Below are positions 1,996-47,152 of a stretch of DNA of 47,152 nucleotides, piece after piece; within the stretch, counting starts at the first letter, position 1, and every line of letters begins with the position of its first letter. The notes under the pieces were generated by a model. The model saw nothing but the letters and a program-made list of their open reading frames with translations, was not told the origin of the DNA and did no database searches. The position numbers and the translations under genes are program-made. The DNA comes from Heterotrichella gracilis (lineage: Eukaryota; Sar; Xanthophyceae; Tribonematales; Xanthonemataceae), in the NCBI GenBank assembly GCA_032358255.1, contig JAULBX010026474.1:1-47152 (forward strand), written 5' to 3'.

Positions 1996-4900
1996 ATGCC
2001 CCAGATGTACGCCGCGCAAGTTGGGCTGACCTACCGGTCCCTGCCCAACTTCTTTGGTGCCTTCTTCTACATCCTGGGCTGCTGGCTCCTGCTGCTCAAC
2101 CCACAGGTGTGTGCCCCTTTGACGCCTGTCTATGCAGCGCCTTGGTGTCATTCTCGCACTGTCTGGAGCTGGGATTGGTGCTTTGCTTGCTGTCTGCAGC
2201 TTGCCTTGGTGGTGGTGTCTGGTCCTCACTGTCTACAGCTTGTTGTCTGGATGTTTCCACCGTCTGCTCTGCTCTGCTCACTTTCCAGACTCTAGTTGGC
2301 CTGTTCTAGGGTTTTTTAGGGTTCAAAGTCCTGCTGCTGCCCTTGCTTGCCTCTTGCCTCTTACCCTCGCCCTTGCCCTAGCCAGCTCTTTCACCTCTTC
2401 AGACACTGCAACCAGACACCATTCCTTCTTCTGGAATATCTTTCCCGCTCCTTCATCTGCACCTCTCCTAGGCATCCTCCTCACACCCTGCTCCCCCCCG
2501 TTTGCACCCCTTTCTCAGGTAATCCAGCACTCCAGGCTGCTCCGAACAGCCTCCAACCACAGCACACCACCACCGCCACCGCCACCGCTACAATCCCCAG
2601 CGCACCTGGGATTGGCCCCGTCCCCAGCTGGTGCAAGCAACAATGCTTCAGTCACTGTGGCCCTGCCCACCTCCAAAGCAGCTGCTTGGGAGCTCGGGCG
2701 GATAGCTGCCGCCCTGGATGCGGTGGATGACGCAGCCACGCAGCACCACCATGCGCCCGCCTGCTTGGCATGGCTGGCAGGCAACACCAGCCTGCTAGTC
2801 CCTCCTCAGGCGCTTGATCCGCAGGTGGGGATTAATCCTGGGATCAACCATTCAGGTGGCGATGAATGCTCAAATTAAAGATTGGGCAGACCAGACTAGG
2901 GTTTCTTAGACCAGACTAGGGTTTCTTAGACGCAGCCGCTTGTTCGTCTTGCATGTGGGCACGCTCTGTCCACACCCGGTGCATGGATGCTGCCCCTGTA
3001 CCCGCGTGTTGCCTATGCTTCATAAAACCACCCGCGGATATGGACTCATCCGCATCCTCACGCTCATTCCAGGCAGATGCAACCAGCCCTACCTGCGATA
3101 GCGACACCGTCACTCCCTCCCTTGCCACCTGCTCCACACCCACCCTGCTCCACAAAGCCGCCCTGCTGCTCAGCCGCCAGGTGTCACCCTCTCAGCTACG
3201 CCAGCTGGGGCACCACATCCGGGAACACGAGATCAGGCAAGCCCCAAACCGTAAACCCTAGATCCGGGCACATGAGACCAGGTCAACCCCAACCCCTTAA
3301 CCCTGCAGCGCTCTCTCAGCCTCAAACGGGTGCACTTGAAGTTGAGATGAGCCACGCGATTGTTTGTATTTGTATACTGGGGTTTTTTTGATGTATCTGT
3401 GTTAACCATGAAGTCCATGATGACGTGGAACGGAACTTTCACGGAACTGTATACGCACTTTTCTCTTTCAATAGATCGATTATTTATCGTCTTAATTTTT
3501 TCATTTGCTGCTGTAATACTGATATTTTTGGTGTGTTTTGTTCTTTCAGGACTGCGCTGCTGACCCGCCTGTCCGGCTACTTCAGCTCCGTAAGCATCAT
3601 CTGGTACCTAGCGGTGTGGGGCATACTCATGTCGGTGCGACCCACCCTCAAGGTGCTGGTGCACATGGCCACACCCTACCTGCTGTGGTTCGTGCAGCGG
3701 GTGGTGCTGCCTATCTCCCAGGTAGGGGACCTGCCTGCGCATGGAGGTGGCGTGATGGGGATCAAGCGTAACAATACCAAGGGGGCGTGCAAGGCGCATG
3801 GGTTTAGGGTTTAGGGTTAAGGCATGTGCTTAAAGCCATGCGGTCACATGCGCCAGGATGTTGGTTCATGTGGTGACGCGTTGCTTTGGTTTGTACAGCG
3901 GGTATTGCTGCCAATCTAAATACCATAGGAAAGATGGGAGAGGGCATGCACACTGCTTGGAGGGGCATGTATGTTGAATCATAAGTGATGCATCCACTGA
4001 ACCCTATCCACCCAACCATAAACCCTAAAAGTTAAACCATGACCTCCTTCCCAGGTGATTGGCGCCGGCGTCCTCACCGTTTTCCTCCTACTCATGCCCC
4101 TGTACGAGTACCTCGCCTACCTGGCATGCCTGTACGTGGTGGCGTTGGGGGAGAGGGACATGGGGCGCGTGGGGCGCACTGCGGTGCCCCTTACTGGGAC
4201 GGGGCTGGCGCACCTTGCCTTGTACCACTTCTCGGGGCTCAGGCAACAGCCTGCAATGGTAGGGCTGACATTGGTGTGGTTGGTGGGGTATATGGTTGAT
4301 AGGGTGCAGTTGGTAGGGTTTGGGGGTGGTAGGGTGGGGCGCGTGCAGCGATGCCGCTCTCGGGGCTTGTCTGGCGCACCCTGCAGCAATGGTTGTACAT
4401 GTTACGTAAACCCATGGCCCCTAAACCCCAGACTTGCATGTTGCAGCTGACCGAGGACCTCCTGGTGCGCCCGGGCCGCATCTACGCCCGAGGCGAAACC
4501 TGCTTCCTGGTGCAAGCGCTCTTTGGGGCCCTGTCTGTGACGCCCGTGACGGCAAAATACGGGTCGTCACTGCTGGGGATGTACTCTGTGGTCTGCATGG
4601 CAGGTGCGGACCTTGGTCTGTAGCGTGAAGGATCATGGAATTGTACGTTTATGGAGCCGTGATGCGTGTGGGTGATTGCATGTGCTCATCTGGCAGTACT
4701 GGTGGGCTGCTGCGGTGCATGTACGGGACTAGGTGTGGAGGTGGGTGACACCTGTAGCGGCCAAACTTTGGTTAACGCCGCTGGGGACGTAATGGAATCC
4801 CCGTGGAGTTACCTTTCATGATATGGTCATGTGCATGGCAGGTGCTGGGTGGAGATTGACATAAGGGCAAGGGTTTGCCTGGAACTGATTTGCCCCTCGA

Positions 4901-5984: not shown

Positions 5985-5989
5985 TGTAA
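5985..5989 (+). terminator. Putative TGTAA poly(A) signal
   Basis: TGTAA lies about 370 bases after the stop of the + gene, directly before the hairpin at 5991. TGTAA is the known chlorophycean polyadenylation motif; its use here is inferred. Confidence 0.4.
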
Positions 5990-5990
5990 G

Positions 5991-6011: not shown

Positions 6012-6054
6012 TTTCAACTTCAACTGATGATGGTGCTTTACCGCTCTTCAAATT

Positions 6055-6600: not shown

Positions 6601-8588
6601 TCAAATGACCGCGTCGATGAGCCCCAGCTCCTGCGCCTGCTTGGGGTTGAGGAAGTTGTCCCTGTCGGTCTCCTCCTGCACCCGCTCCAGGTCCAGGCCA
6701 GTGAACTGCACCATGAACTGGTGAATCACCTTCATGGTGCGGTTCAGCTCAGCAGCCTGGATGTTGACCTCGTCGGCCGAGCCCATGGCGCCGCCCCCGG
6801 GCTGGTGGACCATGATGCGCGTGTTGGCCATGGAGTAGCGGCGGCCCTTGGTGCCGCCGGCCTGCGGGTGGGGGGTGGTGTGTGGGATGTGGGCGGGGAT
6901 GTGGGTGTGCACGTGTGTGTTTTGGCCATGGACCGGTGGCGGACATTGGTGCCAATGGCTGGCGGGTGGGGGGTCTGGGTGTGCGCACGTGTGTGCCAGC
7001 CAAGGAGTAGTGGCGCAGACAATGGGGGCGGCAATGAATTTGTACTTTGGAGACGCGGTGCGCAGATGCGCTCATGTGGGTGTGCTTGGCACCCACCAGG
7101 AGCAGAGCAGCTGTGCTGCCCACCATGCCGAATGCCACCGTCGAGATGGGGTTCTTCACGTGCTGCATGGTGTCCAGGATGGCGATGATGGCGTAGGCGG
7201 AGCCGCCTGCAGGGGCAAGCAACGGGTCCAAGCTTAGGGTGCCGTTGAGGTTTAAGAGCTTAGAGTTTTGAATTTCTTCACGTGCTGCATTATGTCTAGG
7301 ATGCCGATGATTGCATAGGCGAAGCCGCCTGCAGGGGCAAAACAACAGAGAACATACTAGGCTTTAAACTGAAGGGCGTAGGGTTTAGGGTTCTTCACGT
7401 GCTGCGCCTTGTCCAGGCTGGACATGATGCCAGGGTGGCAACATCGGGACAAACGCCATGAGTTGTGAGGCAGCGTGGTGTGCCACTGGTGGGTGTGAGG
7501 CGGCGTGGCACTGCCACTGGCGCACTGCTCCTCTTGGGTGCGCAGGGTCGCTCATGACCCTTTGACCCTAAGCCCTGAACCCTAAAGGTGGTGTGCGCGA
7601 GCCGCACCTCCCGAGTTGATGTACATCTTGATTTCCTCATCGGGGTCCAGCGCCTCTAGCGCGAGCAGGGAGGCGACGACGGAGGTGGCAACCTGGGGAG
7701 CGCCACACACATATTAGGGTTTAAGGGTTTTGGTGGTCGCCAGACCCACTGCATATTGGCCTTGCATGATAGGTATTAGCTAGCAACCTAGCCAGACTAG
7801 CAGCGAGCCTTGCAAATGCGGCGGCAACATTTGGTATGCATCCCTTACACGCGGCTGGAAGCGGCATGCGTATGGTCACCTCGACACCGAGGCCGTGCCG
7901 GGTGCTTGTAACACAGCAGCCACACGCCATGCATCCCTAAACCCTAGACCCTTATTTTCACCAGCCGCTGCTACCCAGCAGCCCCATATAAACCTCTATA
8001 TGTCTCCCCAGCGCCAAGGATGCGCCATGCATACCTGGTCTGTTATCCTGGAGCCCACAAAGATAATGCGGTTCCGGAACAAGTAGCCCATCATGTCGGT
8101 CACATCCTGCGGGTGGTGGCAGGTAGGTTTGTGGGTGAGTGCAAGTTAGGAGTGCAAGTTGGCTGTTGTCCAATAGCCACACACCAGCACAACTGCACAG
8201 GAGCTTACCTCCGCATCTGGCCCGATAGACACCACGGGGGCGATGATAGGGTCACGTGGTCGACGAGCTTCCAGAGGCCGCAACCTGGTCGTTACAAGGA
8301 GGTGTGGTTTAGGACCCCAGATGGGGTGCTCATCGCAGCATTGGTCTGGTTGCTGGGGAAACACATGAACTCATCCCACCACAATAATGTGTGGCTTGTG
8401 ACCAAAAAAGGCACTCAAGCCACCATATAGAAGTGGTTTAAGACCTCAGATAGGTGGTGGTATTACTGGATAGGTGAAGGTTAGGACCACATGGGCATTC
8501 ATGGGGAGTGCGTTTGCATGCATAAACATGCATTAGTTGGACCTACCTGTCGATGTGTTTCCTCACGGGAGATGCTGTTAGGGCTGAT
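6601..8588 (-). CDS. Chloroplast-type ClpP protease subunit, catalytic (5' end unresolved)
   Basis: Exons, 5' to 3': 8588-8547, 8284-8209, 8106-8035, 7692-7608, 7206-7097 and 6861-6601, at least 214 residues, phases consistent. The protein is a serine-peptidase subunit of the Clp proteolytic core. The ClpP fold is clear: FRNRIIFVGSRI, MYINSGGGSAYAI, GMVGSTAALLL with the catalytic Ser, IMVHQPGGG with the catalytic His, and TDRDNFLNP with the catalytic Asp. All three triad residues are kept, so this is a ClpP and not an inactive ClpR. The DNFLNP and GLIDAVI motifs recall plant ClpP3, while STA recalls ClpP6; I cannot choose. The N-terminal part (SALTASPVRKHIDR) looks like a transit peptide, but no in-frame ATG was found upstream, so one more exon near 8600-8990 is expected. 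It is divergent from the plastid L22 gene. Confidence 0.92.
6926..7032 (-). repeat. Two copies of the ClpP last-exon acceptor edge
   Basis: The exon start with its acceptor (about 6825-6890) recurs at about 6926-6975 (ggccatggaccggtggcgg, then gcgggtggggggt) and more weakly at about 6987-7032 (gccaaggagtagtggcgc). Both lie in the last intron. Confidence 0.65.
7265..7435 (-). repeat. Two copies of the ClpP fifth-exon acceptor edge
   Basis: The first copy (7265-7335) repeats the exon start at 7147-7213 with its CAG acceptor. On the minus strand it still translates as GGFAYAIIGILDIMQHVKK, but it has no donor. The second copy (about 7391-7435) keeps only ttcttcacgtgctgc and gtccaggctggacatgatg. 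TTTAGGG-like filler (7378-7392) separates them. Confidence 0.85.
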
Positions 8589-9192: not shown

Positions 9193-10790
9193 ATGCGCGT
9201 CATGGCGTTCGCCCCAGCGGGCGCCGTCTCGACAAGGCCATGCGTGGCAAGGCCAGCAAGCTTCAACCAGCAAAAACTCAGCTTCTCTAGCGCAATGAAC
9301 ACAGTAAGTCCTTTTAATTTACTATGTAGATGTCAGCTTGGTGAACGAGCAAGCTTTCCCCAGGATAAGCTAGGCCCTCTGCCCATCCCCTTGCAACAAT
9401 CCTTTACTTCATGTGTTTCCTGCAGAATGCATTTGCGTTGCGGCAGCAGAGGCGGGTGGCACCAGCAGCTTTCTCCTCAGTGGTTATGGCTGCTGCATCA
9501 ACTGACGCGCCAGAGGCTGAGGCCCACTTGCGGTTCAACAGAGGCTCGCCATTCAAGGTAACCCATCCACACAGCTAGCTTGCCAGCAAAACACAGAGAT
9601 AACGCAGCAACTAGTCAACCAGTGCAGCTTTGGTGTACTTTGACCTTACGCAGCAGACTGTGAAGTCTGCTACTCTTCTCATTCCCACTCTATGACACGA
9701 CAGGGTGGAGGCTTGCATGCAATTACAGCGCAGCAGGCTTCTTACCTGGGACAACTAGTACTAGTGGTCTGCATTGGTGGCTGCAATATGTGGCGTCATG
9801 TTGGTCACATATCCTTCAACCTTTGCACACACGGCTCAACTTGCCCCCAACAAGCATGTTGGTGCTGCATCTGTGGAGGCGATGTAATGTACCCATGGTG
9901 ACTACGTTGCACTGTGGCGTGCAGGTGAGGCGGGTGTTGGACCAGATCCGTGGCAGGAGCTACGAGGAGGCCCTGATGATTCTGGAGTACATGCCATACC
10001 GGGCCTGCGACCCAGTACTCAAGACTCTTGTCAGCGTAAGTGCTGCCTCCACCTCCCCTGAACCATGCCTGCTGTTAGCATAGCCCAACCTACCCGGGGA
10101 AGGGTCTATTATACAAGTGCGTATGGGGCTCATTTGGGGAAATTTTTGCTGTTACCTACCTGGTAGTAAACCGACAGTAAAGGGATTGGGTCGGCCACAA
10201 GCTCTGATAGTTTTGATGACGCCCTCGCCACACGAAACATTCTTAATACTAAATCCCTGGAGGCTGCTGCCAATGCCAAGCAAAACCCTAACTCCTAGCT
10301 GCTAAACCCCTGCAGGCTGCTGCAAACGCCAAGCAGAACCTGGGGCTGAAGAAGGCCAAGCTGGTGGTGAGCGAGGCCTTTGCCGATGGTGGCCCAGTGC
10401 TCAAGCGCATCCGACCTCGGGCCAAGGGCAGGTGCGTGGGCGGGTATACTTCATGTTTAGGCAGCCAGTGGCGCAGGTGCCCAAGCCAATCAAACCAGGG
10501 CCACGTTTAATCTCGACTGCTGCCTGGCGGTTGGGTGGGTTGCCAAAGGCAGGAGGGCTAGAATATGATTATTCAAGTTCCCCTGCCATGCGTACCCATT
10601 GTCTGCACCGAGGGCTAAGAGGCCACAACAAAGGACCCATAAATGCGCGCATTTGAATGCTTGTTGTGGTGCATCTATTGCGTGGCTTGGGACCTTAAAC
10701 TGACTGGTCTCCTTGCGTGCACGCAGGGGCTTCGCCATCCACAAGCCTCTGTTCCATTGCACCATCAAGGTCCGCGAGGCAGCAGAGTAG
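9193..10790 (+). CDS. PRPL22: Plastid ribosomal protein L22 (uL22), nuclear-encoded
   Basis: Five exons: 9193-9303, 9426-9557, 9925-10035, 10316-10431 and 10727-10790, 177 residues, all phases consistent. The first two exons encode a Ser/Ala/Arg-rich transit peptide ([16 protein letters not shown]...), probably cleaved before [16 protein letters not shown]. The mature part follows bacterial L22: [17 protein letters not shown], the [11 protein letters not shown] segment, then [22 protein letters not shown], which is the conserved beta-hairpin motif lining the peptide exit tunnel, and IKVREAAE at the end. It assembles into the 50S subunit of the chloroplast ribosome. Length fits a bacterial-type L22 plus transit peptide. 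The start was chosen as the first ATG; the Met three residues later is an alternative. Confidence 0.96.
10261..10288 (+). repeat. Copy of L22 exon-4 acceptor edge
   Basis: aggctgctgccaatgccaag matches the exon start at 10314 (aggctgctgcaaacgccaag) and runs into an aaaccctaac motif. It lies 26 bases before the real acceptor. Confidence 0.8.
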
Positions 10791-31200: not shown

Positions 31201-31927
31201 GGCAGTGACGTCTCCAGTGCATCTCAGCCACTGTGTGACAACGCACATTTGGCCGAGGATGCATGCCGGCGCACCACCCGCGCCCAAAAGGTGCAGCATT
31301 GGCTCTTGGAGCGTCTAAGGCGCGTGTAGGGGGTGGGTTTGGGGACAGTTTCCGCGCGCGGTGTGGGGAGTGGCATGCACTGCTTCCAAAAGGTTTTGGC
31401 GCTTAGAAAGGCGCCAAGCCGGCGTTTAACTGGCAATGTTGCTGCACGCTGCTGCTAGAAAACGAGGTCACTGGCTAGGAAAAATGTAACAAAAGGCTCC
31501 AAGGCGGTTTCCTTTGCACGCGCTGCAGCAGCCCCGTTTCATTTCAGTGAATGAGACCCGTCTAGCTGGCATGCATGCCGCACCTGTACCCGTCGTCGTT
31601 CCTCTTGTGCCAGTGGTCGCCCAGCAGCTCCATGAAGATAGCAAATGGGGGCACAACCAGCTTCAGCACCACCTCCAGGTAGTGCAACCTCCCGTTGCCC
31701 ATCGGGTACCACGCCGCGCTGCAGTAGGGCGTTGTCGGGTGGTGCAGCGTCCGGGTGAAGCTGGCAAGAGTCCACCACAGGCCCCACACGATGAAGATGG
31801 CCCCCGGCGCGAAGTGGCCCAGCCACGACCCGAACACCCACCCCGCCACGGCCTTCCCGTCGCAGTCCACCGCCATGGGGTTGTGCATTGTGTGGTTGCC
31901 CGAGGTTTCTGCCTCATGCATGTCCAT
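28228..31927 (-). CDS. TMEM45/DUF716-family multi-pass membrane protein
   Basis: Exons, 5' to 3': 31927-31584, 30440-30337, 30013-29961, 29627-29393, 28938-28840 and 28457-28228, about 354 residues with consistent phases. The family is recognised from GHFAPGAIFIVWGLWWTL near the N-terminus (TMEM45: GHxxPGxxFxxxGLWW), the NNWTHTATYPAFILSGIADL segment, LAYSIEFFLLVTHKKHTPLD with its VHQLLGL helix, and LLQGVWFWMIAHIMF. These give about seven membrane helices. Several His and Trp residues typical of the family are kept. The acidic tail (DEELGAFSDGNDSAHEHD) is cytosolic or unstructured. The molecular role of DUF716 proteins is not well known, and I infer none here. A GTAAGG inside the last exon could be an alternative donor. 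Confidence 0.82.
29176..29262 (-). repeat. Copy of the TMEM45 exon-4 donor edge
   Basis: It repeats 29390-29470: cacctragaacatgatgtg, cgatcatccagaaccacacc, then ccctgcagcagctgcgc. Identity is about 95% over the first 60 bases, including the donor (cacct), with decay beyond. Confidence 0.9.
30389..31080 (-). repeat. Tandem copies of the TMEM45 exon-2 acceptor edge, about 8 units
   Basis: The real exon edge with acceptor (30389-30466) is followed in the intron by units starting near 30498, 30603, 30680, 30767, 30864, 30922 and 31038. Each holds all or part of gcggccagcc, cagtcccagggggcag, tacatggtcctggggac and aggagtagggtttagaag. TTTAGGG filler separates the units. Later units lose blocks and gain substitutions; the last keep only gcagtacatcccg. 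Confidence 0.9.
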
Positions 31928-32419: not shown

Positions 32420-35400
32420 TCAGCTGCGCAGCGTGTGCGCCACCAGCCGGTACCCATCCCCCCCCACCAGCAGCTCCACTCTCCCCCGCTCCCCCTCCCC
32501 CTGCCCCCCACAATGAACCCCCACCACCCCAGCACCGGCCGCAGTAACATCCCCCCCGGGCGACATTCCCTCCCCAGTTGACAGCTGTGCACGTTGCTCC
32601 CTTGCCCACGTGTCCAGGGCGCGTGCCACGTAGCGCGTCATGAGGGTCCCCACCTCCTTGGCACCCTCAATAGGGTATTCGCCGTCAAAATCCACCTGGG
32701 AGCAAGGGGGGTGTCAGATAGTGGGCCAGGTGGCCTGACCACAGCCATTAAAAATGGCTGCGCAGTTGCTGCAGCTGCTGAATGAGACCATGATTAGCAC
32801 GATAACCCTCAGCCCTCACTTCCTACTCCAGGATCCATACATATACTGCTCTCGAGCAGGAATGCATGTTGAACATGTACACGTTCTCGCTCGAAAGCAA
32901 GATAAGCAGTCAAACCCTACAATGCAGCGCCAGGCAGTATCCGGTTCCCAACAGCAACCCTAAATCCTAAAAGCACCCACCTTGGAGGTCAAAAACTCCA
33001 CCACCTCCGGCCCCCACACCAGCCCCACCCCCCACTCCCGCTCCATCGCCGCCCCCCGCTCCCGCAGCCGCATCCCAAACAGGCGCCGGATGTGGGGCCT
33101 CTCCAGGGGGAGGAAGGGGAGGAAGAAATCGATGAGCGACAGCATCTTCACGGTGTCAATGCGGTCCTCGCACTCCGCTGCCATCCACTGCGTGAAGATG
33201 AGGTCCTTGAGCATGCGCTGGGCGGCCTCGGGGGAGATCTGTAGGGGAAGGGGGGGGTAATTGTGACAAAAATGCTGTGTGTTTCGTTGGTTGTTTTTGT
33301 TCCATCGGGCTGAATTCATTTTTACTTCAGCCTTCCGAGTGCGGCCCATGCCCTGGCCCACCGATAACCTGCCCCGCACCTGAGGAAATCTACAAAACTA
33401 GCACACATCAGGGATAACAGTCATAACATACAGCAAATATGTCCCCAACCTTGCTCCTATCCCCCGCCTCGTGCAGTATCTAGTGCAGATGACTACAGCC
33501 CCCATTGAACCCCAAACCCTAACCCTATACCCTAAACCCTATCCCACCTTGCTCCTCTCCCCTGCCTCATGCAGCAGCTGGTGCAGCTGGCTGTAGCCGC
33601 TGTTGGACCCCAAACCCTAACCGTAAACCCTAGAATCTAAACCCTAAATCCTGACCCGTGGTACCTTGCTCCTCTCCCCTGCCTCATGTAGCAGCTGGTG
33701 TAGCTGGCTGTAGCCGCTGTTGGACTCGAGCATGATGATGAACCTGGGATGGACGTGGGGATTATTGGGGATTGGACTCGAGGATGACGGTTGAATTGGG
33801 AATGGGCATGCATATGGATGGGGATTGCAATTTGAGTCAATGATGAACCTGGGAATTGGACGTGAGGACTATGCTGAAACTGGGGATGGGCGTAGATTGT
33901 TGCGTGACTGCATTGAGGTTTGCACAGCCTCCGGGTCGACCATGCGCAATGGCTCAGTTCACAATGCACAGGCCAAACCATGCGCCATGACCCCCGATTG
34001 CATGCACCTGAAATTCAGGTTCTCACAGCACTCGCCACGCTGGTAAAGCGGCCCTCAAAAGCCAGCCCCCCTACCACCACAGACATGAATCCCCACCTGT
34101 TGTTGGTTGCTGTGAGGTTTGCGCTGTGCGGGTTCTGGATCAGCTGCCTTAATAGCCCCCTGGTTTGGCAGTCCAGCTTGTCATACTCCTCAACCACCAG
34201 CAGGGACTGGGGGGTGATGGCAAGGTGGGACAGGATGGCAGAGCGAAGCAGATTATGTTGCTCCCCTTGCTCGGCAGCCACATAGTCCATGCCATACAGC
34301 ACCTGCAGGAGGTTGAGGTTAGGGTCACGATTAGGGTTACGATTAGGGTTGGGGCCTAGATTCTAGGATTCAGAGGTTAGGCCACATGTCACACAGCACC
34401 AGCAGGGATTGGGTGGCAAAGTCGCGGCATGGCGACGGGCATGCCCTACTGCGGTTGTGGCCCTCAGGCCGCGCCATGTCATGATGTGCCATGCCATGCC
34501 ATGCCAAGCAGTGCCGCCCGTGCCGAGGCATGCCATGCCGTGGCAAGCCAGCCTTGCCGTAGCCGCGGTGGTTTATGTGGCAGGGTACCTCTCCCAAAAT
34601 GCATCGCATAGCACCATTCTCACCCAACTCCTGGACCAAAATACCGCTCAACGCACCACCTCTCCGCTCCCATCCATCACCATATGCACCCACCTTGTAC
34701 CCCGGGCACGCCACCCCTGGGCAGCTCCCACTATTCTGGTCAGTGAGGTTGTACAGCGCATGCGCCACCAGCCGATGGAAAAATGTCTTGCCCACCCCCG
34801 GGGGCCCGTGCGCCGACAACACCAAGGGTTTGCTAGGGTGTTCCTGGCGCAGGTGGTGGCATATGGCGGTGCAGGCCTGCTCGAGTGCCAGCTCCTGACC
34901 CACTATGGTGGAGAGCAGGTAGGGTTCTAGGGTGTCGCAGGCTGCGGGGGAGAAGTCGACTGGGGCTGCAAGGGGGTGTGAAGGAAGTTTAGGGTTTTGC
35001 AGGTTGGGTTGTAGGGTTTTTGAAGGTAGGGTGTCCTGGCGCAGGTGGTGGCACATGGCTGTGCATGTCTGCTCCAGTGCCAGCTCCTGGCCCACTATTG
35101 TGGATAGCAGGTAGGGTTCTAGGGTTTCGCAGGCGGCGGGGTAGAAGTCGACTGGGGCTGCGAAGGGCATTGGGTTTTGGGGCATTGCAAGTTGGGTTCT
35201 AGGGATTTTGCTTGTAGGATTGTAGGGTTCTGTAGGCAATTTGGGGAGTGGGCAATTCACAGGGGAAAAGGGTAGTGAGGGGATTTGTAGGATTTTGCAA
35301 GCAGGCAGATGAGAGTGAACTGGACAGGCGCTGCAAGGTGGGGCATAGGGTGGGTGGTGGGGTGGTGGGGAGCGACAGAGAGTGACGTCAGAGGCAGAAG

Positions 35401-35858
35401 GTAAGTGTAGGTGGTTATGCTGGTACATATAGGGACAGTTGTTGGGGTTGGGTTGGGTTGGTACGTGATTTGTGCATGCATGGATTGGCCAGTATGCAAG
35501 ATGCAGTGCATGCTGAACAGCGAGACGGTTTTAAGTGCGCGAATTGGTTGAGGAAAAAGTAAGAAATTGAATTCAGTCTACATATGCTGCCTGGCTTTGT
35601 GCTATGGTCACATTTCGTCAGTGGCCAATATGCATGCATTGTGGATATTCTCCCGGACCCTGCTACTCGACCACGAGGAGCCCATGCCCAGCCTTCACAC
35701 ATACTGTGGCAAGGAAATCCATCCTGTACCACCAGATAGATCAGCTATCAGCATCCCACGCCGCTGCCAACCGCACACCTACCTCCAAACTTGTGCACCG
35801 CTCCCAACAGGGCTGACACAAGCCCGAAGGTTATCCCCACCGCTGTTCCGAACACCAT
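32420..35858 (-). CDS. Torsin-like AAA+ ATPase with N-terminal hydrophobic segment
   Basis: Exons, 5' to 3': 35858-35783, 34965-34694, 34302-34097, 33743-33665, 33238-32981 and 32695-32420, about 388 residues; every phase agrees. Exon 1 (MVFGTAVGITFGLVSALLGA...) is a hydrophobic segment, as in ER or nuclear-envelope torsins. Then come PLVLSAHGPPGVGKTFFHRL (Walker A), LLVVEEYDKLD (Walker B), FIIMLESNSGY (sensor 1), SLIDFFLPFLPLERPHI and IEGAKEV at the sensor-2 position. The spacing and the IDFFLPFLPLE block match torsins rather than ClpB. It differs from animal torsins in three ways: the P-loop is the canonical GPPGVGKT rather than GxTGxGKN, Walker B has EE for DE, and Ala stands for Cys in the GCK motif. 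The Gly/Gln-rich end is low complexity. A divergent Clp-type AAA+ protein is the alternative. Confidence 0.75.
33463..33615 (-). repeat. Two copies of the torsin-like exon-4 donor edge
   Basis: The copy at 33548-33612 still reads SNSGYSQLHQLLHEAGERSK in frame, with only silent changes, and keeps a GT donor (GTGGGA). The copy at about 33467-33505 has an in-frame TAG and missense changes but also keeps a GT. aaaccctaa filler joins them to each other and to the real exon at 33665-33743. Confidence 0.9.
35033..35345 (-). repeat. Two copies of the torsin-like exon-2 acceptor edge
   Basis: The nearer copy (35033-35165) repeats about 120 bases of exon 2, including a CAG acceptor, and still reads PVDFYPAACETLEPYLLSTI and on into LALEQTCTAM. 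The farther one (about 35296-35345) keeps a cttgcag acceptor-like block and a diverged start. Both lie in the first intron, and the frame stays open from 35428 to 34694. Confidence 0.85.
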
Positions 35859-37219: not shown

Positions 37220-40200
37220 CTACTTTGCCGCGCCCACCTTGGCGGGTTGCGTGACGATGGCGTCCCTGCCTGGCCCCACCCCGATCCATGTGCACTCCAC
37301 ACCCACCAGCTCCTCCACGCGCTTGATGTACGCGTGGGCGGCGGGGGGCAGCTTGGACCACTCCCGCGCACCGCTGATGTCGCTCTTCCACCCGGGCAGG
37401 GTCTCGTACACCACCTGGGAGGGGGGAGGGAGGGTTTTTTTGGTATGCGTTTAGGGTTTTAGGGTTTTGAAGGCGCAGCTGATGTCGTTCCTCCACCTCG
37501 GGAGGGTCTCGTACACCACCTGGGTGGAGGTGTTTCGGTGCCTGTTTAGGGTTTTGGGGGTTTGGGTTTAACGCGGCGCTGGTGTCGCTCTGCCTGCCAC
37601 AGGGAGGGTCTCAAACATAAGCGTTAGTGCTCCGGGGTTCCATGTGGGTAATGGTCACCCAGGATAACAACATATTTATCATCAAGATAGTTTAGCTTGT
37701 GCAATCCACCACACACTTGTGACCACATCTATGGCAAATGTGGGTAGATTATGCCCTCACCTCGCATTTCTCCAGCACGTCAATGTCCGCCGGTACCGAT
37801 GTCAGCACCTTCCCGTCCACCTTGTATGCCACGCCCACCTTGATCTCGTCCAGGTGGCTCAGCACGTCGAGCTTGGTGAGGTTCAGGTGGGTGAAGCCGT
37901 TGATCCTGGATGTGGGGGATAGGGTTTAGGGTTCAGGGTTCAGGGTTCAGGTGGGTGAAGCCGTTGATCCTGGATGTGGGGGTCAGGGTTCAGGGTTTAG
38001 GGTTCAGGGTTCAGGGTTCAGGTGCGTGAAGCCGTTGATCCTGGATGTGGGGTTCAGGGTTCAGGGTTCAGGGTTCAGGGTTCAGGTGCGTGAAGTTGTT
38101 GATCCTGGGTGGGGGTGAGGGTGAGGGGGTGCGCAAGGGGGAGGGCAAGTCATCATGATAGATGGAGTGTATGCTGTAGTGCAAGGGATGATGATGTGAC
38201 ATCAAGAAGACCGCAGTCCGCACCCATTGAAACCCCCAGGCACCTCCACCCCCCAGCTGGCCAGGTAATTATCCAGTACTCAAAGTTTGGATACCCTTTC
38301 AAATACCTGATATTACCTAAGACAATCCCACAAACCCCCACCTGCAGGAGTACTTGAGCGCCACAATGTCCAACCAGCCCACGCGCCGCGGCCGCCCCGT
38401 TGTGGTCCCGTACTCAAACCCTATCTCCCGCAGCTCGTCTGCCTGGGGGCCAAACAGCTCGGTGGGGTAGGGGCCCGCGCCCACCCGGGTGGTGTACGCC
38501 TTGGCCTGCGGGGGTGGGGGTGGGTGTGATGGAGGGGAAGGGAGAGTTGAGAGCCACGGACAGCCTAGGTAATCCATGGCCGATGCTTTTGTTTTGGGGA
38601 TGTGTAGAAGTGTTCAACAGCTGTCATTGGCAGTTCAATTGTGCTGTCTTGCAGTGCAGCATGCAACCAAACGCACATGCCATGCGCCAGCCCACATTCC
38701 GCATCTGCCATGCACCCCCCACCGCACCCACCCCCCACTCCCCACACACGCACCACTCCAATGATGGCATCATACTTGTTTGGTGCCAGCCCCAACCCAG
38801 TGATGATGCCCCCGATGGAGGGGTTGGAGGAGGTGACAAAGGGGTAGGTGCCGAAGTCGATGTCCAGCATGGTCGCGTTTGCTCCCTCCACCAGTATCCG
38901 CTTGCCCGACTCGTATGCTGAGTTGATGTAGTCCAGGGTGTCGGTCACGTAGGGGCGCAGCGCATCGGCGATGCCCTGGAAATGGAAAGAATATATATTT
39001 TAGGATATACTTACTATAGAATTTATTGCGTTTTTCATGAGTCCAGGGTGTCGGTCACGCAGGGGCGCAGCGCGTCGGCGATGCCCTGGAAATAGAACGA
39101 ATTTGTATGAAAGGATATAATTACTATATAATATATTGTGTTTCTCATGAGTCCAGGGTGTCGGTCACGTAGGGCCGCAGCGCATCGGCAATGCCCTGCA
39201 GACAGAAAAACGGTAAATTTTACATTACAGGATATAATTGTTGTACAATTGTGTTTTTGACTAGTCCAGGGTGTCGGTCATGCCGTGGCTTAGCGCTTCG
39301 GCGATGCCGGGTAGAAACTAGAGTTTAGGGCTTAAAGAATAACAAGTGCACGGCAGGTACATTCTAATGCATTTTATAAAAACGGCAGAAATCACAACAA
39401 CTAAAACATCTATGAGTCATACATCAAGTTCATTTGCCCACCTTGTATGCCTCAATGTCCTTCTCCAGGTCATATTCCAGGCCAGGGAAGCGAGCGGTAG
39501 CATCGGCAGCCAGTGTGCGCAGCTTTGCCTCGAAGGAGGGGAAGTTCATGAGGTCAACCACACGCACCTGGGCACAGCAGAATCTAGTCATACTAGGGAT
39601 TTGTTGGAAAAAGCAGGCTTTGCCTCGGTTCCTGCATTTGCATTCTGGGAGAACGGGGCGCATGCAAATCGACCACACAACTTTACACATAGCTCAATCA
39701 GGGGGCTATCATGGCTCAACAAATAATGACAATAATCACAGCAATGACAACAATTCAAAAATGCGTGCATGTTACTAATCAACTAACTGCAGTAGTTCAA
39801 TATTTATACGAAACCCAATATGATCATATACTGAACGCACCCCGTTGCGGGTGGCCTTGGATGCGTATGCTGGCCCGATGCCGCGCTTTGTGGTGCCGAT
39901 CTTGTTCCCCGCCAGCTCCGCCTCCCGCTCCCCATCCACCTCCTTGTGCAGGTCGAACAGCAGGTGCGCGCGGTCAGACACGAGCAGGCGGTCAGTGAAG
40001 GACACGCCGCGCGCCTTGAGGCCTGGGGATAGTATTTTAGGGATTTTAATTAGGGTTTTGGTGCTCAACACCAGCAGGCGGTTGGTGAAGGCCACGCCGC
40101 GCGCCTTGAGGCCTGGGGATAGTATTTTAGGGTTTCAGTTTAGGGTTTAGGTTGTCGACACCAGCCCGCGGTCCGTGGACGTTTGCACAATGGGTGGATG

Positions 40201-41489
40201 AGTTGACATCTAGGGCTAAAGCTTATGCAACATCGCCATCATGTCACTTCACCATACTTATGTGGTGCACCATCGCAGGAGCTCGTAATCCAATCCTTAT
40301 CCTCTTTGTTCAACCCACCTTCTACCTCCTCGAATAGCCCCGGCAGGTGCACCACCACCCCGTTGCCCACTATAAATAGCAATATATTTTTTTTTATATA
40401 CATTGTGCTCAACACACCTTCTATCTCCTCAAACAGCCCGGGCAGGTGCACCACCACCCCGTTTCCCACAATGCACACCGCCTTGGGGTTGAGGATGCCC
40501 GAGGGGATGAGGTGCAGCTTGTACTTGTTGCCCTCAGCGTCGTAGATGGTGTGGCCAGCGTTGGCGCCACCCTGCGAGGTGGTGGTAGGGTTTTAAGGTG
40601 AGGTGAGGTGCAGCTTGTGTATGTTGCCCCACGGCATGCAGATGGCGTTGGCGCCGCCCTGCGGGTGGTGTAGGGTTTAGGGTTTTGAGGGTAGGGTGCA
40701 GCTTGTATGTCTTGCCTCGGCGTCGTGGGTAGTGTGGTCAGCACTAATTTGGCACTACATCAGGGTTTGAGATGCAATGGTGTCCTTTGAGTGAGCGCCT
40801 GGGTGGTTTGTAGTCGAGATCCACCAATACTGCAGGAGGGTTGCAATGACATGGAGTGGAGCCCACAGATAAGGGGAAGGTGGTTTTGTGCACAAAGGAA
40901 GTCCAGCACTTAATTACCAAACAACTGTTAGCGGTTTATATTGTGGTGCTGGAGTGTATAGTTGACATCAGCTTGTTTGGGAACTGGGTAGTTAACATGA
41001 CTACAACCCAATGGCAAGGCTGCGATCATGGCTCGTGCTGCACCGATGATATGGCCTCGTACCTGAGCCCTGGCAACGATGTCGTACTGGGCAGCCAAGA
41101 TGTCAACCAGCTTGCCCTTTCCCTCGTCCCCCCACTGCGTCCCCAGCACGACGCAAACCTGGGCATCAAAGCGGTCCTGCTGGGCGGTGGGTGGCGCTGC
41201 AACGGCGGCCTGGCAGACTACGGTACCCCTGTTGGCGGCGGTTGAGAGCAGCTGCTGGGGCTTCCTGGCGGGCGACTGGCGGGTGCAGAAGAGGGTGGGG
41301 GTGCGTTTGCCGGTGGGGTAGTGGGCCCTATTGTGATAGGATGTGGAGGGTGCGCCCGACCTCCACAGGGCCAAGCGCTCGATTACCTGTACGAAGATGG
41401 GTTTATGTAAGGATGTTTGGGTCGAGAGAACGCATTGGGGTCGTTTGGGAGGGTGTGGGAAAGGGTCTTACCAGCCCAGAAGAGAGCAT
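37220..41489 (-). CDS. PURA: Adenylosuccinate synthetase, chloroplast-targeted
   Basis: Nine exons, 5' to 3': 41489-41472, 41386-41063, 40571-40418, 40022-39841, 39567-39442, 38975-38754, 38505-38342, 37905-37761 and 37414-37220, 509 residues, all phases consistent. The enzyme joins IMP and aspartate using GTP, the first step from IMP to AMP. The tiny first exon encodes MLSSGL. With the second it forms a transit peptide rich in Ser, Arg and Pro, ending near [11 protein letters not shown]. Motifs: [15 protein letters not shown] (GTP and IMP site, catalytic Asp), GGANAGHT (catalytic His), [31 protein letters not shown] then SSNP, GPYPTEL, and RRVGWLD. The C-terminal [10 protein letters not shown] is typical. 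Length fits plant enzymes (about 490). It is divergent from the proline-rich membrane gene. Confidence 0.97.
37467..37612 (-). repeat. Two copies of the adenylosuccinate synthetase last-exon acceptor edge
   Basis: The edge at 37367-37420 recurs at 37472-37528 (gctgatgtcgttcctccacc, then gggtctcgtacaccacctgg) and more weakly at about 37572-37612 (gctggtgtcgctctgcc, gggagggtctc). TTTAGGG filler separates them. The first copy keeps the CAG acceptor. Confidence 0.85.
37885..38105 (-). repeat. Four tandem copies of the eighth-exon acceptor edge
   Basis: gtgaagccgttgatcctgga starts at 37891 (real exon edge), 37955, 38026 and, diverged, 38090. Between the copies lies nothing but TTCAGGG/TTTAGGG repeats. 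Period 64-71 bases. Each copy keeps the CAG acceptor context. Confidence 0.92.
38931..39325 (-). repeat. Four tandem 110-bp units spanning the sixth-exon acceptor
   Basis: gtccagggtgtcggtcac begins at 38931 (real exon), 39041, 39151 and 39264. Each unit has 45 bases of exon start, the CAG acceptor and about 60 bases of AT-rich intron. Units 2 and 3 are close to identical with the exon; unit 4 is diverged. Confidence 0.93.
40050..40185 (-). repeat. Two copies of the fourth-exon acceptor edge
   Basis: The edge at 39976-40050 (gagcaggcggtcagtgaagg, acgccgcgcgccttgaggcc, tggggatagtatttta) recurs at 40069-40140 almost unchanged, and a worn trace (gacaccagcccgcggtccgtg) follows at 40156. Confidence 0.88.
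40308..40395 (-). repeat. Copy of the third-exon donor edge
   Basis: It repeats 40409-40470 (ttctayctcctcraayagcc, ccggcaggtgcaccacc, accccgtt) with the neighbouring donor (cacctt). A tatatttttttttatata stretch joins copy and exon. Confidence 0.88.
40590..40745 (-). repeat. Two copies of the third-exon acceptor edge
   Basis: The edge at 40505-40580 recurs at 40600-40665 (gaggtgcagcttgtgtatg, gatggcgttggcgccgccct) and, worn, at 40690-40741 (ggtgcagcttgtatg, cggcgtcgtgg). TTTAGGG filler lies at 40672-40686. Confidence 0.82.
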
Positions 41490-42047: not shown

Positions 42048-44872
42048 ATGCCCCGAGCAGCCAAACCCCAGCGAGGTGCCGCGTGGGTGACCATATACAC
42101 CCTCGTGACCCTGGTATCTTCCACCTGGTGTGCTTCAGTCGTGGCTGCCATCCCCGCCCGCGCCGTGCAGCATAACCCCCGGGGCTGGCAGGCTGCCCTG
42201 CCCCAACCGCAGCCCCACCGCCACCCTCCACCCCTACCCCAGCCTCAAGAACCACCGCCACAGCAGCCTCAATACCAACACCAGCAGCAGGCGCAACCTG
42301 AAGCCCCCACCCAGCCTCCACCCACCGCGCCAATTGACACAGCCAGTGGCACATTCCCGCTCCTGGCATTCCTCCTAGGGTTTGCCACAGCCTACTTGGC
42401 AGCATGGACAGGCCTCCTGCGATTCCCCACCACCCGCACCCCCCACCCCGCCACAGCAGACGCGCACACGCAGAACCCCCCCGCGCCACCCCCACCCGTC
42501 AGCGCCGAAGGGGTGCTCGGCAAGGGTGCAATCCCAGGGACCGGGCGGGGGGTTGACGGTGAGCAAATTTCCAGCAGTGGGGACCAGGTGGGGATTGGAG
42601 AACACGAATATTTGCTGCACCCCAGCAGCCCCGAGGCACACCAAGCGCCCAGTGCAATCTCTCTGCAGCAGGGCGCGGCGAAACCCTACACAGGGTCTTC
42701 ACAACCAAGCGTCCTCGGCTTGCGGCGACAGGGCGACGCGGAACCCTGTGCAGGGTCTTCAATAACCCTAGAGCAGCAGGGCCAGGCGGAAGCTTGCACG
42801 CATGTGGCACCGCCGCCAGCTCATGCTTCAGAATTCACCTCAGCTATCGGGATCATTAATTTGGGACAGGAGCAGGCGGATCCTCCTGCTTTCACACAGC
42901 CAGACCTGGGTGGGGACTGGGAAGAAGTTGGCGAAACCTTGTCCACCGCCACCACCCCACCGCCACCCCAGCGCCCAGCCGCCCCCCAGGCAGAATCCCC
43001 ACTCGCCACCCCCGCCAGACGCCTGTTTTCCTCCCCAGAAGGCGCCATCCACCCCCTGTCCTCCCCTGAAGAACCTCCCCAATCCACAGCCACCCCCCCC
43101 CCCCTTGTCAGCCGACCACCAGCCACTGACGCAGCCCCCTCCACCCCCACCACTGGTGGAGGGGGCTCCTCCGCTTTCCTCACCCCCTTTGGCCTCCCCA
43201 CACCATCCTCCATCGCTCCCCTGGCCAGTCCCGGGGAGGCTGGCGCCGCGCAGCACTGGCAGTCGGCTGTGAGGGATGTGCACGGCTGGTTGCAGGTGGG
43301 TGCCGTGCCTTCCAGAGGAAATTCGAAACCCTAAACCCTGTGTGCATGGCTGGTTGCAGGTCAGTGCCGTGCCCTCCCGGTGGATTCCAAAACCCTACTC
43401 CCTAGGCATTCTGTGCATGGCTGGTTGCAAATGGGTTGCATGGCGGCCATGCCCTTACTCAGCTTCTTGTTGCACCCTGAGCCTGCATGGCATCGCACGT
43501 GGTTGCATTTCTACAAGGGTGGACTGGCTCTACTGCATAGCAACTGCTGGCAAGCCACATGCCACCTGCTACATGTGGTCATGTGGCCACACTGTGCATA
43601 TGCCCACGCCGCACGCCACATGCCACCTGCGCCGTCCCGCCCCCTTCCCTAGCATTCCGCTGGCTCCCACCCGCCCTGTACACACACTGTCTTTACACAA
43701 CACACACGCCCAACTCCCTGCAGGCGGCGTGTGTTTCCCCCGCCCAGCTGACCCCCTCCGAGAAGGTGCGAGTGCTCCACCTGGTGCACGAGAGGGAGAG
43801 GCTGTACCGCAAGGCGCACCAGGACGAACTCAGAAACAGGTGGGAACTTCCACTGTGGTAACCTAAAATACGCGACATGCCCTGACCCTCACGCTGTGGA
43901 TCCTTCCCAAGCACCCCATCGGAAATCCTATCCATCAAACCCTAAAGCCTTGTCTCCCAAGGCAAGCCGAGGTAGCCACAAGTGCAGCAGCAGGGGTGGA
44001 GGCTAGTCAGCAGATGGCGCACCTGACCAACACCATATCCACAGGACAAACCCTGGACCCTCATGGTAGTGTACCCTTCTCACCGCAAACCCTAAACATT
44101 AAAACCCTAAACCCCCGTCCCCAACAGGCAAGCCGAAGCAAGCCACGAAGTCCAGCAACAAGGGGTGGAAGCCAGCAAACAGATGGCGCACCTGGCTGCG
44201 GCCCGCCACACCCAGCGCGCATCGGAGCGCGCGGCAGCGCACCGCGTATCCCGGGCCGCCGACCTCCTCTCCACCGGTCTTTTAATTATGTCCCTGGTGA
44301 CGGTCTGGTGTGGGGCGCGGTGGGGGCTGGTGGTGGGGGTGCTGGGGCGGTGCCGGCGGCTGCCACGGGGGTGGGTGTGGGTGTTCAAGCCGTGGCTGGT
44401 GGCGGAGGCGGTGGGGGTGGTGGGGTGCTGGGCGGGCGCGGTGGGGGGCGTGGGGGGCGCGCTGGTGCTGGTGTACGGGCTGGGGGTGGTGGTGGTGCGG
44501 GGAAACGTGGTGGGGGGGGTGGGGACGACCCCCGTGGCGAGCGTGGGGGTGGGGCTGGGGGTGGTGGGGGGTGCCCTGGGGTTTTTGGCGGTGGCGCAGC
44601 TGGGTGGGGACTGCTGGCGGTGGCTGTGGGTGTGGGAGGGGTGGGTGTGGGTCCAGCTGGCAGCCATGCATTGGCTCCCAGGGGGGGAAGGGGAGAAGCA
44701 CACCGTGGGTGGGTTGTTGGTGCGCGCGTGTGTGTGGCTGGTGTTGGGGGTCGGACTGCCGGTGGCGGCGGGGGTGGTGCCATTCTGGCAGTACATTGAT
44801 CCGGGTCATATGGGCGGGGTTGGGAGGGCGCTGGCTGCGTGGGGCCGCTGGGGGTTGGCGGCTGTACTGTAG
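42048..44872 (+). CDS. Proline-rich protein with C-terminal multi-pass membrane domain
   Basis: Three exons: 42048-43295, 43724-43839 and 44128-44872, about 702 residues, phases consistent. The start was chosen at MPRAAKPQRGAAWVTIYTLV because a TATA-like box precedes it; the frame is open from 41892. The N-terminus looks like a signal sequence or anchor, followed by a Pro/Gln-rich stretch, a hydrophobic segment (FPLLAFLLGFATAYLAAW) and a long Pro/Ala/Ser-rich linker. Exon 2 and early exon 3 encode a charged, probably helical segment (VRVLHLVHERERLYRKAHQD; SKQMAHLAAARHTQRASERA). About five membrane helices follow, very rich in Val, Gly and Trp. The layout, helix then five membrane spans at the C-terminus, loosely recalls plant CPR5, but I see no motif that proves it. 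Function unknown. Confidence 0.65.
43340..43440 (+). repeat. Two copies of the proline-rich gene's exon-1 donor edge
   Basis: gtgcayggctggttgcag at 43278-43295 recurs at 43342-43359 and 43413-43430, with the following tgccgtgccytccmg block also copied once. The first copy is followed by GTCAGT, a donor-like sequence. Its use would add a stop codon, since the reading frame ends at 43334. Confidence 0.88.
43962..44045 (+). repeat. Copy of the proline-rich gene's exon-3 acceptor edge
   Basis: aggcaagccgaggtagccac, then gcagcagcaggggtggaggc and cagatggcgcacctg, match the exon start at 44126-44200. The frame (QAEVATSAAAGVEASQQMAH) is still open and the AAG acceptor is kept, but no GT donor follows, so a cassette exon is unlikely. 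Confidence 0.85.
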
Positions 44873-45713: not shown

Positions 45714-47152
45714 CTAGTCCGCCCACACGCTCCACCCGTATATTGCCACCCCCAGCAGCGCGCCCCCCCCAAGGCTGACTAGCGTGTACAGGTGGGCGTG
45801 GAAGGTGCGGGGGAAGCCGGTGTCGCTCTGCTTCTTGACCTGGGGATAGGGGGAAATTGGCATCATTTATTGGGCCTAAGGGGCCAAATTGACATCAGTT
45901 ATTGGGCCCAAGGGGCCAAATTGACATCAGTCATTGGGCCCAAGGGCCCAAATTGACATCAGTCATTGGTCCCAAGGGGCCAAATTGGTTTGGCATTGAT
46001 CACACGGGGGAGGCCAGTGGCGCTCTGCTTTTTTACCTGTGCACTGGGGGGTGGATGGAGGGTTTCCATTGACACAAGGAAGGGAACTGGGGTAGTATTG
46101 ATATTTAAAGGGGGCGTGGAATTTCTGTCCCCTTTGGTCTCACTCCACGTCCCCCCCACCATGAATGTGACACAGTCCTCAGCCCTACGAAACCCTACAC
46201 CCAAAAACCTACACCTACACGCGTACCTCCACCACGATTGTTGACACGGTACTCAGCGCCCCTCCAAATCCTACACCTTTCATCCGAAACAACACACCTT
46301 ACACCCTACACACCCTTACCTCCACCACGAATGTTGACACCGTGCTCAGCGCCCCGCCAAAACCTGTCTGGGTGGCCTTCAGCAGGAGGCCCCAGTAGCC
46401 TGCGCAGCAAGGGGGGACTGGTAAGAAGAAGTGTCCATAGGAAATATGGGCGGGGGAGGCAGGTGTCGCCGATGCAGGGTGGTGACATGCATGTAGCTTG
46501 GACAGGCCACCTCATCACACCGCATCACATCACAGCACATCATCGCACATCATCGCACATCACAAGTACAGCACAGCATAGCACCGCACAGGGAATATGC
46601 TGCAACAGAGGACCAGGCACTGTCAGGCAGCAGTGCCGATGACAACATTGCATGTCCCCATGAGGCGGATGGGCATGCCTGCAGGCACATATTCCCAACC
46701 AAAACCCTAAGGGTTCCTTACCAGGCTGCACCCGCTGCTTCACGCTTGCAGCGCAAAGTCTAGCACGCATGCAAACCCTAGCCACAACCCTAATCAAAAC
46801 CCTAGAGAATTCCTTACCTAGCTGCACCCGCTGCTTCACCGCCTGCAGCGCAAAGTCCAGCACGCACGCCAACATATTCGCCGCAAACGTCCCCACGGGG
46901 AACCACCTCGCCCCCGCCCACTTGTAGTTCAGCGGGGCCAACAGCCACCTCAGCACACACCCAAAGGGCGCCATCAGGCAGGCGAACCAGTACCCCCTGC
47001 GCACCGCGTGCTGCGGCTGATCGTCTGTGATAGCAAGGGCAATGAAGGTGGCGGTGGTGGCGGCCAGGAGGGCGCCGATGGCTGTGTCTGTTTTGGTGCC
47101 CAGGAGCGAGAGGAAGGCAGGGGCTTCGAGCTTGAAGGTGGCGGGTGGGGGC
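45714..47152 (-). CDS. FEX: Fluoride exporter, CrcB/FEX family (5' end outside window)
   Basis: Exons seen, 5' to 3': from the right edge (47152) to 46818, 46399-46320 and 45839-45714; at least 179 residues, phases consistent. FEX proteins form a fluoride channel in the plasma membrane from two fused CrcB-like halves. What is visible is the linker helix (LLAATTATFIALAI) and the C-terminal half: APFGCVLRWLLA, WFPVGTFAANMLA (the GTFxAN pore motif), then TGFGGALSTVSTFVVE, matching the GxxGxxTTFSTF signature with Val for Phe, and a last helix (LYTLVSLGGGALLGV). The first CrcB half and start codon must lie beyond the right edge. It is convergent with the proline-rich membrane gene. Confidence 0.9.
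45854..45988. repeat. Four tandem 32-bp repeats in the last FEX intron
   Basis: Unit aaattgacatcag..., 32 bp, at 45854, 45886, 45918 and 45950, followed by a partial unit. Each ends in a gggcccaaggggcc-like palindromic block. It lies 15 bases upstream (minus strand) of the last exon's acceptor. Confidence 0.93.
46000..46262 (-). repeat. Copies of both exon edges inside the last FEX intron
   Basis: 46002-46044 repeats the last exon's acceptor edge (gggggargccrgtggcgctc, tgctttttta, cctg) from 45808-45845. 46225-46262 repeats the donor edge of the middle exon at 46316-46361 (acctccaccacgattgttga, cacggtactcagcgcccc), and a worn version is at about 46150-46186 (ccccaccatgaatgtgacac, agtcctcagc). 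Confidence 0.82.
46713..46775 (-). repeat. Copy of the FEX donor edge of the first visible exon
   Basis: ttccttaccaggctgcaccc, then gctgcttcacgcttgcagcg and caaagtctagcacgcatgc match 46810-46870. The copy keeps the GTAAGG donor. Telomere-like aaccctagccacaaccctaa filler lies between copy and exon. Confidence 0.9.

Follow-up and report, generated by a model that had tools for sequence, protein, structure and literature searches.

Degenerate copies of exon edges in introns of Heterotrichella gracilis and their association with telomeric filler

Contig JAULBX010026474.1 of Heterotrichella gracilis (assembly GCA_032358255.1) raises the question of why so many of its introns contain degraded versions of the neighbouring exon. 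The whole 47,152 nt of this contig is referred to here as the window. It holds ten genes, and the first-pass annotation held that in nine of them at least one intron carries degenerate copies of an adjacent exon edge. This observation is confirmed and extends past the window. In a curated set of 10 genes and 43 introns, exon edges of up to 130 nt were aligned to their own introns, with telomeric words masked here and throughout. At a Smith-Waterman score of at least 30, an own exon-edge copy is present in 21 of the 43 introns and in 9 of the 10 genes, while only 1 of 3440 alignments to introns of other genes reached this score. Of the 24 edge matches, 14 are at acceptor and 10 at donor edges.

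The donor-edge copies previously described in the orphan gene, exons 3-5 of the B3 gene and the torsin-like, TMEM45, synthetase and FEX genes all reproduce, as do the acceptor-edge copies of ClpP, TMEM45 and the synthetase. The acceptor-edge copy of L22 is borderline at a score of 30, as is a match in the torsin-like intron 34303-34693 (score 30, control maximum 31). The copy of the ClpP terminal exon past its stop codon, noted as the exception to the intronic location, is real. The desaturase had been called a weak case; none of its 4 introns in the curated model has an own-edge copy at a score of 30 or more.

Window proteins, or parts of them, match the Pfam families Clp protease, fatty acid and sphingolipid desaturase, ribosomal L22, CrcB (FEX) and adenylosuccinate synthetase; gene names outside these matches are labels from the first reading of the sequence. 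Within these five genes, whose proteins match Pfam in part, 10 of 21 introns are positive. The curated synthetase model has a broken frame after exon 38732-38975 and its first 337 residues were scanned against Pfam; some curated borders are perhaps a few nucleotides off. Among the best 120 of 2669 matches to the sphingolipid desaturase, the best named proteins are those of Coccomyxa, Myrmecia, Symbiochloris and Chlorella at 62-64% identity, and a close relative is absent from these 120. The four genera are trebouxiophyte green algae.

The self-alignment of introns to their flanking exons that had been proposed as a check was made on a 297 kb sample, consisting of the window (contig C396) and positions 1-250000 of contig C2. 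Gene models for the sample came from a simple gene finder of our own, trained on the 297 kb and run without transcript support. Introns longer than 1500 nt or with a flanking exon scoring below 15 were excluded, and 274 introns with well-scoring flanking exons were kept, 32 of them in the window. Own-edge copies are present in 47 of the 274 introns and in 26 of 51 genes, at 25 of 274 donor edges and 28 of 274 acceptor edges, against about 0.1 per 274 for each edge type in introns of other genes. The pattern is real, is present on a second contig and is symmetric between donor and acceptor. A single inverted edge copy was found in the sample, in agreement with the claim that the copies share the orientation of their exon. 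Interior exon stretches 60-120 nt from the edge are almost never copied (2 of 198). Copies occur at 34 of 237 edges of exons of 100-200 nt and at 24 of 311 edges of other exons (p 0.017), although this is one of several splits examined.

An artefact of the assembly or of the gene models is hardly credible as the source of the pattern. The home-made gene finder did call some copies exons (37497-37589, 39059-39085 and 39169-39195) and merges adjacent genes, which lowers the copy counts in the sample, and the assembly contains bacterial-looking contigs. However, the copies are degenerate, with a mean identity of about 0.87, unlike assembly errors, and of the five window genes with a partial Pfam protein match four carry copies. 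Two DNA polymerase A domains of bacterial appearance, almost complete and free of interruptions, are found at C442:116638-117765 and C111:216815-217945, which suggests that the assembly includes bacterial contigs.

The anatomy of the copies is consistent between cases. In 46 alignments, from a set that drops edges below 34, the median copy has an exon part of 43.5 nt and an intron part of 12 nt. The splice-site set, which drops edges below 28, has 58 copies, at a distance of 36-148 nt (10th to 90th percentile) from their junction. Those matching up to the junction keep GT in 11 of 14 cases and AG in 14 of 18, together 25 of 32, which is close to the 0.75 expected at an identity of 0.87 and far over chance. 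When copies whose match stops short of the junction are counted as well, which gives all 58, GT is at its expected position in 14 of 28 and AG in 18 of 30. The duplications therefore had a template that contained the splice site, as had been claimed of the window and is now seen beyond it, and this speaks against spliced mRNA as the source. The copied splice sites decay as if neutral, and selection for or against them was not detected.

Duplication of segments bearing AG/GT had been put forward as a route to new introns, in which the copied junction becomes the far splice site. This is not borne out, as 0 of 58 copies place the copied junction within 5 nt of the far splice site. One lies within 15 nt, in a modelled intron of 61 nt, and the median distance is 260 nt. 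The copies are therefore associated with the lengthening rather than the birth of introns, and no new introns or exons were seen among those examined. Introns with copies have a median length of 367 nt against 259 nt for those without, so the claim that introns are lengthened stands as an association and not as proof of cause. A tandem duplication in the potato RdRp gene likewise runs from the last part of an intron into the exon that follows (PMC4974935). As described there, splice signals are carried along, resembling the acceptor-edge copies here, with the difference that in H. gracilis existing introns grow.

Direct duplication is frequent in this DNA in general. With low-complexity words masked as well, 255 local direct pairs with a score of at least 16 were found in 297 kb, against 1 pair at a distance of 15-16.5 kb. 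For introners, where many introns of different genes would share one dispersed sequence, the relevant counts are this one distant pair and the match of exon edges to introns of other genes at about 0.1 per 274. Relative to random placement, pairs linking an exon or junction with an intron are too many (90 observed, 64 expected), intron-only pairs are somewhat too few (43 observed, 60 expected) and intergenic pairs are too few (17 observed, 53 expected). Duplications inside exons include 29 frame-breaking pairs in C2, mostly from one repeat-rich exon. The modelled exon at C2:127900-128450 has many overlapping direct repeats with several periods.

Inverted local pairs number at most 61, each counted about twice, so direct duplications far exceed them, as would be expected of fill-in repair. 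In mammalian cells, fill-in of 3' overhangs by CST-Pol alpha, which also serves telomeres, followed by end joining generates small tandem duplications (PMC8355091). The short direct duplications are alike, and the 43-bp 3' overhangs used in that study are in the size range of the copies here. That system differs in using mouse and human cells and Cas9 nicks and in depending on 53BP1 and Shieldin and, as described there, has neither telomeric filler nor a link to splice junctions. Fill-in should leave little or no microhomology at the breakpoints, but the copies here are too worn to show exact breakpoints.

The joining of copies by TTTAGGG-like filler, described previously in the window, is also seen in the sample. 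Of 72 spacers of 5-60 nt, 27 contain a telomeric 8-mer where 3.2 would be expected, and of 119 spacers of 61-200 nt, 37 do so where 12.2 would be, with no occurrence of the reversed motif in either class. Among 28 spacers of 201-500 nt the excess is small (8 against 5.2 expected). Among the 46 aligned edge copies, 14 have a telomeric word in the spacer. Searched across the 68.5 Mb assembly of 903 contigs, the perfect 21-mer (TTTAGGG)3 is found 834 times on both strands and its reversed control 0 times. Tracts of at least 10 nt in TTTAGGG phase number 129 in the sample, with 106 in introns (124 kb), 17 in intergenic sequence (71 kb) and 6 in modelled coding sequence (102 kb). Their density in introns is about 3.5 times that in intergenic sequence, for models that lack 5' and 3' untranslated regions. 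TTTAGGG is probably the telomere repeat of the host itself: arrays of 8 units are present on 11 contigs, six of them within 200 nt of the contig start and reading CCCTAAA. It is also the telomere repeat of Chlorella and Coccomyxa, according to PMC12636532.

Duplicated flanks are present at 38 of the 106 intronic tracts, compared with 5.8% of intron positions chosen at random in C2 and 13.5% in the window. If TTTAGGG-like tracts were there first, slippage during replication or unequal exchange from one tract to another might have multiplied the sequence between them, and multi-unit arrays such as 37880-38122 and 14501-14661 do exist. However, this predicts a tract-copy-tract-copy-tract order. 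Among 44 tracts with duplicated flanks, a search of the outer 40 nt found no further tract at 25, one at 19 and tracts on both sides at 0, so the tract sits between the copies. For this set of 44, as for the exon-length comparison above and the youngest pairs below, exons shorter than 45 nt or scoring below 12 were excluded. The 19 cases with one outer tract agree with slippage; the absence of a telomeric word from most short spacers does not, and this origin is judged improbable. A short target-site duplication directly at the tracts was also considered and dropped. Matches of at least 5 nt are found at about 10% of the 129 tracts against 8% of random positions, and although 3-nt matches are found at 48% against 33%, the letters of the tract itself may cause this excess.

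Telomerase extending both 3' ends before joining would require close opposite tracts to read TTTAGGG and then CCCTAAA, and the genome-wide test agrees with this. TTTAGGG N0-30 CCCTAAA has 263 matches (reversed-motif control 26) and CCCTAAA N0-30 TTTAGGG has 89 (control 20), these counts being of matches rather than loci, with repeated units counted repeatedly in both classes. Some places with CCCTAAA N61-90 TTTAGGG resemble, by eye, a short exon between two tract-bearing introns. Slippage, templated break repair and telomerase-like filling had all been offered as mechanisms; flank structure and tract polarity shift the choice for the filler towards telomerase acting on broken ends. The genome has matches to the telomerase RNA-binding domain and to Ku. 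Polymerase A family matches, candidates for Pol theta, are in pieces on C13, C575 and C739.

Telomerase has inserted telomeric repeats at double-strand breaks during mammalian evolution, with duplication of some sites (PMC2246262). The tracts here are alike in consisting of what is probably the host's own telomere repeat, and the duplicated flanks and the polarity of 263 to 89 may reflect insertion at repaired breaks. In Table 1 of that report duplication affects 6 of 130 sites in rodents and 4 of 25 in primates. It is the minority outcome there, deletion accounting for about half, whereas 38 of the 106 intronic tracts here have duplicated flanks. In contrast to the mammalian sites as described there, the tracts are concentrated in introns near exon edges. 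Plant telo boxes, for which telomerase acting on free 3' ends has been proposed as the source (PMC3022908), are likewise short AAACCCTA words within genes. Telo boxes are expected to be concentrated in the 5' regions of genes, whereas 106 of the 129 tracts here are in modelled introns and 17 are intergenic. According to Table 1 of that report, the introns of Arabidopsis and rice are not enriched in telo boxes overall, although the first two introns have more; this differs from the intronic concentration here, although the motif lengths compared are unequal (8 nt there, at least 10 nt here).

Whether duplication is directed to exon borders is less clear. Tandem duplication could be random everywhere, with those that disrupt exons purged and edge copies conspicuous because the functional exon copy is unchanged. 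When tandem duplication is simulated as random, with exons constrained, a single indel rate and eight settings of length and age, many junction copies already arise. The observed excess over this neutral expectation, relative to intron-internal copies, is 1.5-6.6 fold. With introns shorter than 300 nt and windows in which over 25 bases were masked set aside, 43 of 239 exon-edge windows and 45 of 893 intron windows are copied, against a simulated edge-to-intron ratio of 0.8-1.3. Per intron, with those under 200 nt excluded, 46 of 189 have a junction copy and 40 of 189 an intron-internal copy. The two numbers are similar, as indifference to junctions would suggest, yet their ratio of 1.15 exceeds the simulated 0.33-0.78, and for alignments of at least 30 columns it is 2.1 (36 against 17; simulated 0.32-0.76). 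Telomeric tracts, which are free of exon constraint, also lie near junctions, with 42 of 72 in high-confidence introns within 50 nt, where 33% of the sequence lies. In favour of indifference, the splice dinucleotides in the copies decay neutrally, and the excess is absent from the youngest pairs (identity at least 0.95), which are near random: 14 include exon sequence (CI+IJ) against 9.9 expected and 16 are intron-only against 14.0. Junction targeting was dropped as a firm claim, since these tests disagree. Intron-only pairs are also under the random expectation. Duplication indifferent to junctions is quite possible as a full explanation, though we lean against it.

The process had been described as still running, and the identities of the copies do not support this. 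A junction copy of at least 95% identity is present in 4 of the 46 introns with junction copies, against 22-26% in constant-rate simulation, and in alignments of at least 30 columns the figure is 0 of 36 against 15-24%. Near-perfect intron-internal copies are not scarce (11 of 40). Selection against perfect decoy splice sites, assembly collapse of identical repeats or a slowed process may explain the scarcity at junctions.

Selection for splicing might instead maintain the copies or the telomeric words, as decoy or reserve sites, as a pyrimidine tract or branch region where CCCTAAA is near the acceptor, or through pairing of G-rich and C-rich tracts. Tracts are concentrated near junctions, and the last fifth of introns holds 18 C-rich and 5 G-rich tracts. 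However, the first fifth is balanced (9 G, 11 C), the splice dinucleotides of the copies are lost at an approximately neutral rate, and the deficit of near-perfect junction copies fits selection against them; this explanation is decidedly improbable. The same counts dispose of a rule suggested by the window, that the G-rich strand always points from exon to intron, as the orientation bias is on the acceptor side only. With telomeric words masked, the 274 sample introns are rich in G towards the donor, with 29% G and 22% C in the first tenth, and rich in C towards the acceptor, with 18% G and 31% C in the last.

On balance, the copies are probably scars of staggered-break repair by fill-in and end joining, sometimes with filler added by telomerase and with the insertion hidden by splicing. 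If the two strands broke at staggered positions close to where exon and intron meet, 3' overhangs some tens of nucleotides long would be left. Filling in of both overhangs, for example by CST-Pol alpha, and joining of the ends would leave the sequence between the two nicks as two direct copies. Telomerase may sometimes extend the open 3' ends with TTTAGGG units, giving copy, telomeric filler and copy, and extension of both ends would give TTTAGGG...CCCTAAA. A duplication across a splice junction would still leave splicing one usable site, so that the insertion would be tolerated and the intron would become longer, the other copy then decaying neutrally. This combination of fill-in and telomerase would account for the copy-filler-copy order, the direct orientation and the head-to-head polarity together. 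The direct duplications, their reach over the junction, the filler and its polarity, the neutral decay of copied sites and the link with longer introns are observed, whereas staggered breaks, fill-in, telomerase as the origin of the filler and any leaning towards exon edges are inferred.

Several observations weigh against repair with telomerase filler. A telomeric spacer is absent from 45 of the 72 spacers of 5-60 nt and from 32 of the 46 aligned edge copies, so telomerase is at most an occasional partner. The tract lies within 3 nt of a copy in 19 of the 44 cases against 11.6 expected; this excess is slight, and the 44 include several from a common array. Head-to-head polarity is weaker yet still present at a spacing of 61-90 nt (185 matches, control 5, against 122 in the opposite order, control 9), where direct fusion is not the cause. 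The dependence of the mammalian fill-in route on 53BP1 and Shieldin, as described in PMC8355091, is a further point. Intergenic sequence holds few tracts (17 of 129) and few duplications (17 pairs where 53 are expected), which general break repair does not explain without a bias linked to introns or transcription. Transcription-linked breaks or nucleosome edges are guesses as to its source. A stronger proposal is that the telomere-end machinery, telomerase together with fill-in, acts recurrently at exon-border breaks in genes and is a main engine of intron growth, with duplication and filler as one coupled reaction targeted to boundaries, perhaps through nucleosome-sized exons or transcription, rather than random. 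This we consider rather unlikely.

The individual features of the window are given in Table 1. In addition, the FEX intron has at 45854-45987 an intron-only array of a 32-nt unit (4.2 copies, 93%), as read without TTTAGGG filler.

Table 1. Exon-edge copies and associated telomeric tracts in the window. Controls are introns of other genes; repeat periods are from Tandem Repeats Finder (TRF).
Feature	Position	Strand	Evidence
Orphan gene intron, donor exon-edge copy	3722-4054	+	own-edge score 42, controls maximum 23
Copy of 3' part of ClpP terminal exon (6601-6749), past stop codon	6395-6544	-	score 127, 150 columns
ClpP intron, acceptor-edge copy of exon 6606-6861	6862-7096	-	score 35, controls maximum 20
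ClpP intron, acceptor-edge copy of exon 7097-7206, telomeric word in spacer	7207-7607	-	score 75; 55 exon + 12 intron nt, identity 0.90
L22 intron, short acceptor-edge copy, borderline	10036-10315	+	score 30, controls maximum 20
B3 gene, donor-edge copy array of exon 14744-14898, telomeric tracts	14501-14743	-	TRF 14501-14661 period 71, 2.4 copies; score 35; tracts 14601-14621 and 14703-14726, flanks duplicated
B3 intron, long donor-edge copy of exon 15444-15626	14899-15443	-	score 119
B3 intron, donor-edge copy of exon 16055-16201	15627-16054	-	score 31, controls maximum 21
TMEM45-like gene, donor-edge copy of exon 29393-29627	28939-29392	-	score 144
TMEM45-like gene, acceptor-edge copies of exon 30343-30440, telomeric filler	30441-31583	-	score 48; TRF 30558-30706 period 76; tracts 30454-30463, 30473-30488 and 30743-30768
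Torsin/Clp-like gene, donor-edge copies of exon 33664-33743, CCCTAAA filler	33448-33663	-	TRF 33448-33632 period 98, 1.9 copies; score 114
Torsin/Clp-like gene, acceptor-edge copy of exon 34694-34964	34965-35779	-	score 127
Adenylosuccinate synthetase intron, acceptor-edge copy	37415-37760	-	score 62
Adenylosuccinate synthetase, 64-71 nt array of acceptor-edge copies, TTTAGGG/TTCAGGG filler, begins in exon	37880-38122	-	TRF 3.7 copies, 86% matches; score 40
Adenylosuccinate synthetase, 110-nt array of acceptor-edge copies, AT-rich filler, begins in exon	38930-39198	-	TRF 2.4 copies, 88% matches; score 83
Adenylosuccinate synthetase intron, one acceptor-edge and one donor-edge copy	40023-40417	-	scores 70 and 80; 45+40 nt identity 0.90, 55+12 nt identity 0.88
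Adenylosuccinate synthetase intron, acceptor-edge copy	40572-41062	-	score 50
Second orphan gene, donor-edge copies, CCCTAAA filler, begins in exon	43277-43397	+	TRF period 64; score 33
Second orphan gene, acceptor-edge copy, CCCTAAA tract	43840-44128	+	score 63; tract 44087-44114
FEX intron, donor-edge and acceptor-edge copies	45840-46319	-	scores 67 and 39
FEX intron and exon edge, donor-edge copy of exon 46818-47152, 97-nt unit, CCCTAA filler	46400-46873	-	score 75; TRF 46700-46873 period 97

Searches of open-licence literature listed no paper with a title or abstract that reports exon-edge copies with telomeric filler in introns. As probable repair scars, the copies stand out by how dense they are in introns and by their tie with telomeric filler. 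The growth of introns other than by transposon insertion is poorly understood. In this genome 297 kb contain 255 local direct duplications, many of them over splice junctions and some with telomeric filler, so that both can be read together. With a close relative, H. gracilis could be used to test whether telomerase and end fill-in act at ordinary breaks in genes, how often junctions are duplicated and how far extra splice sites are tolerated.

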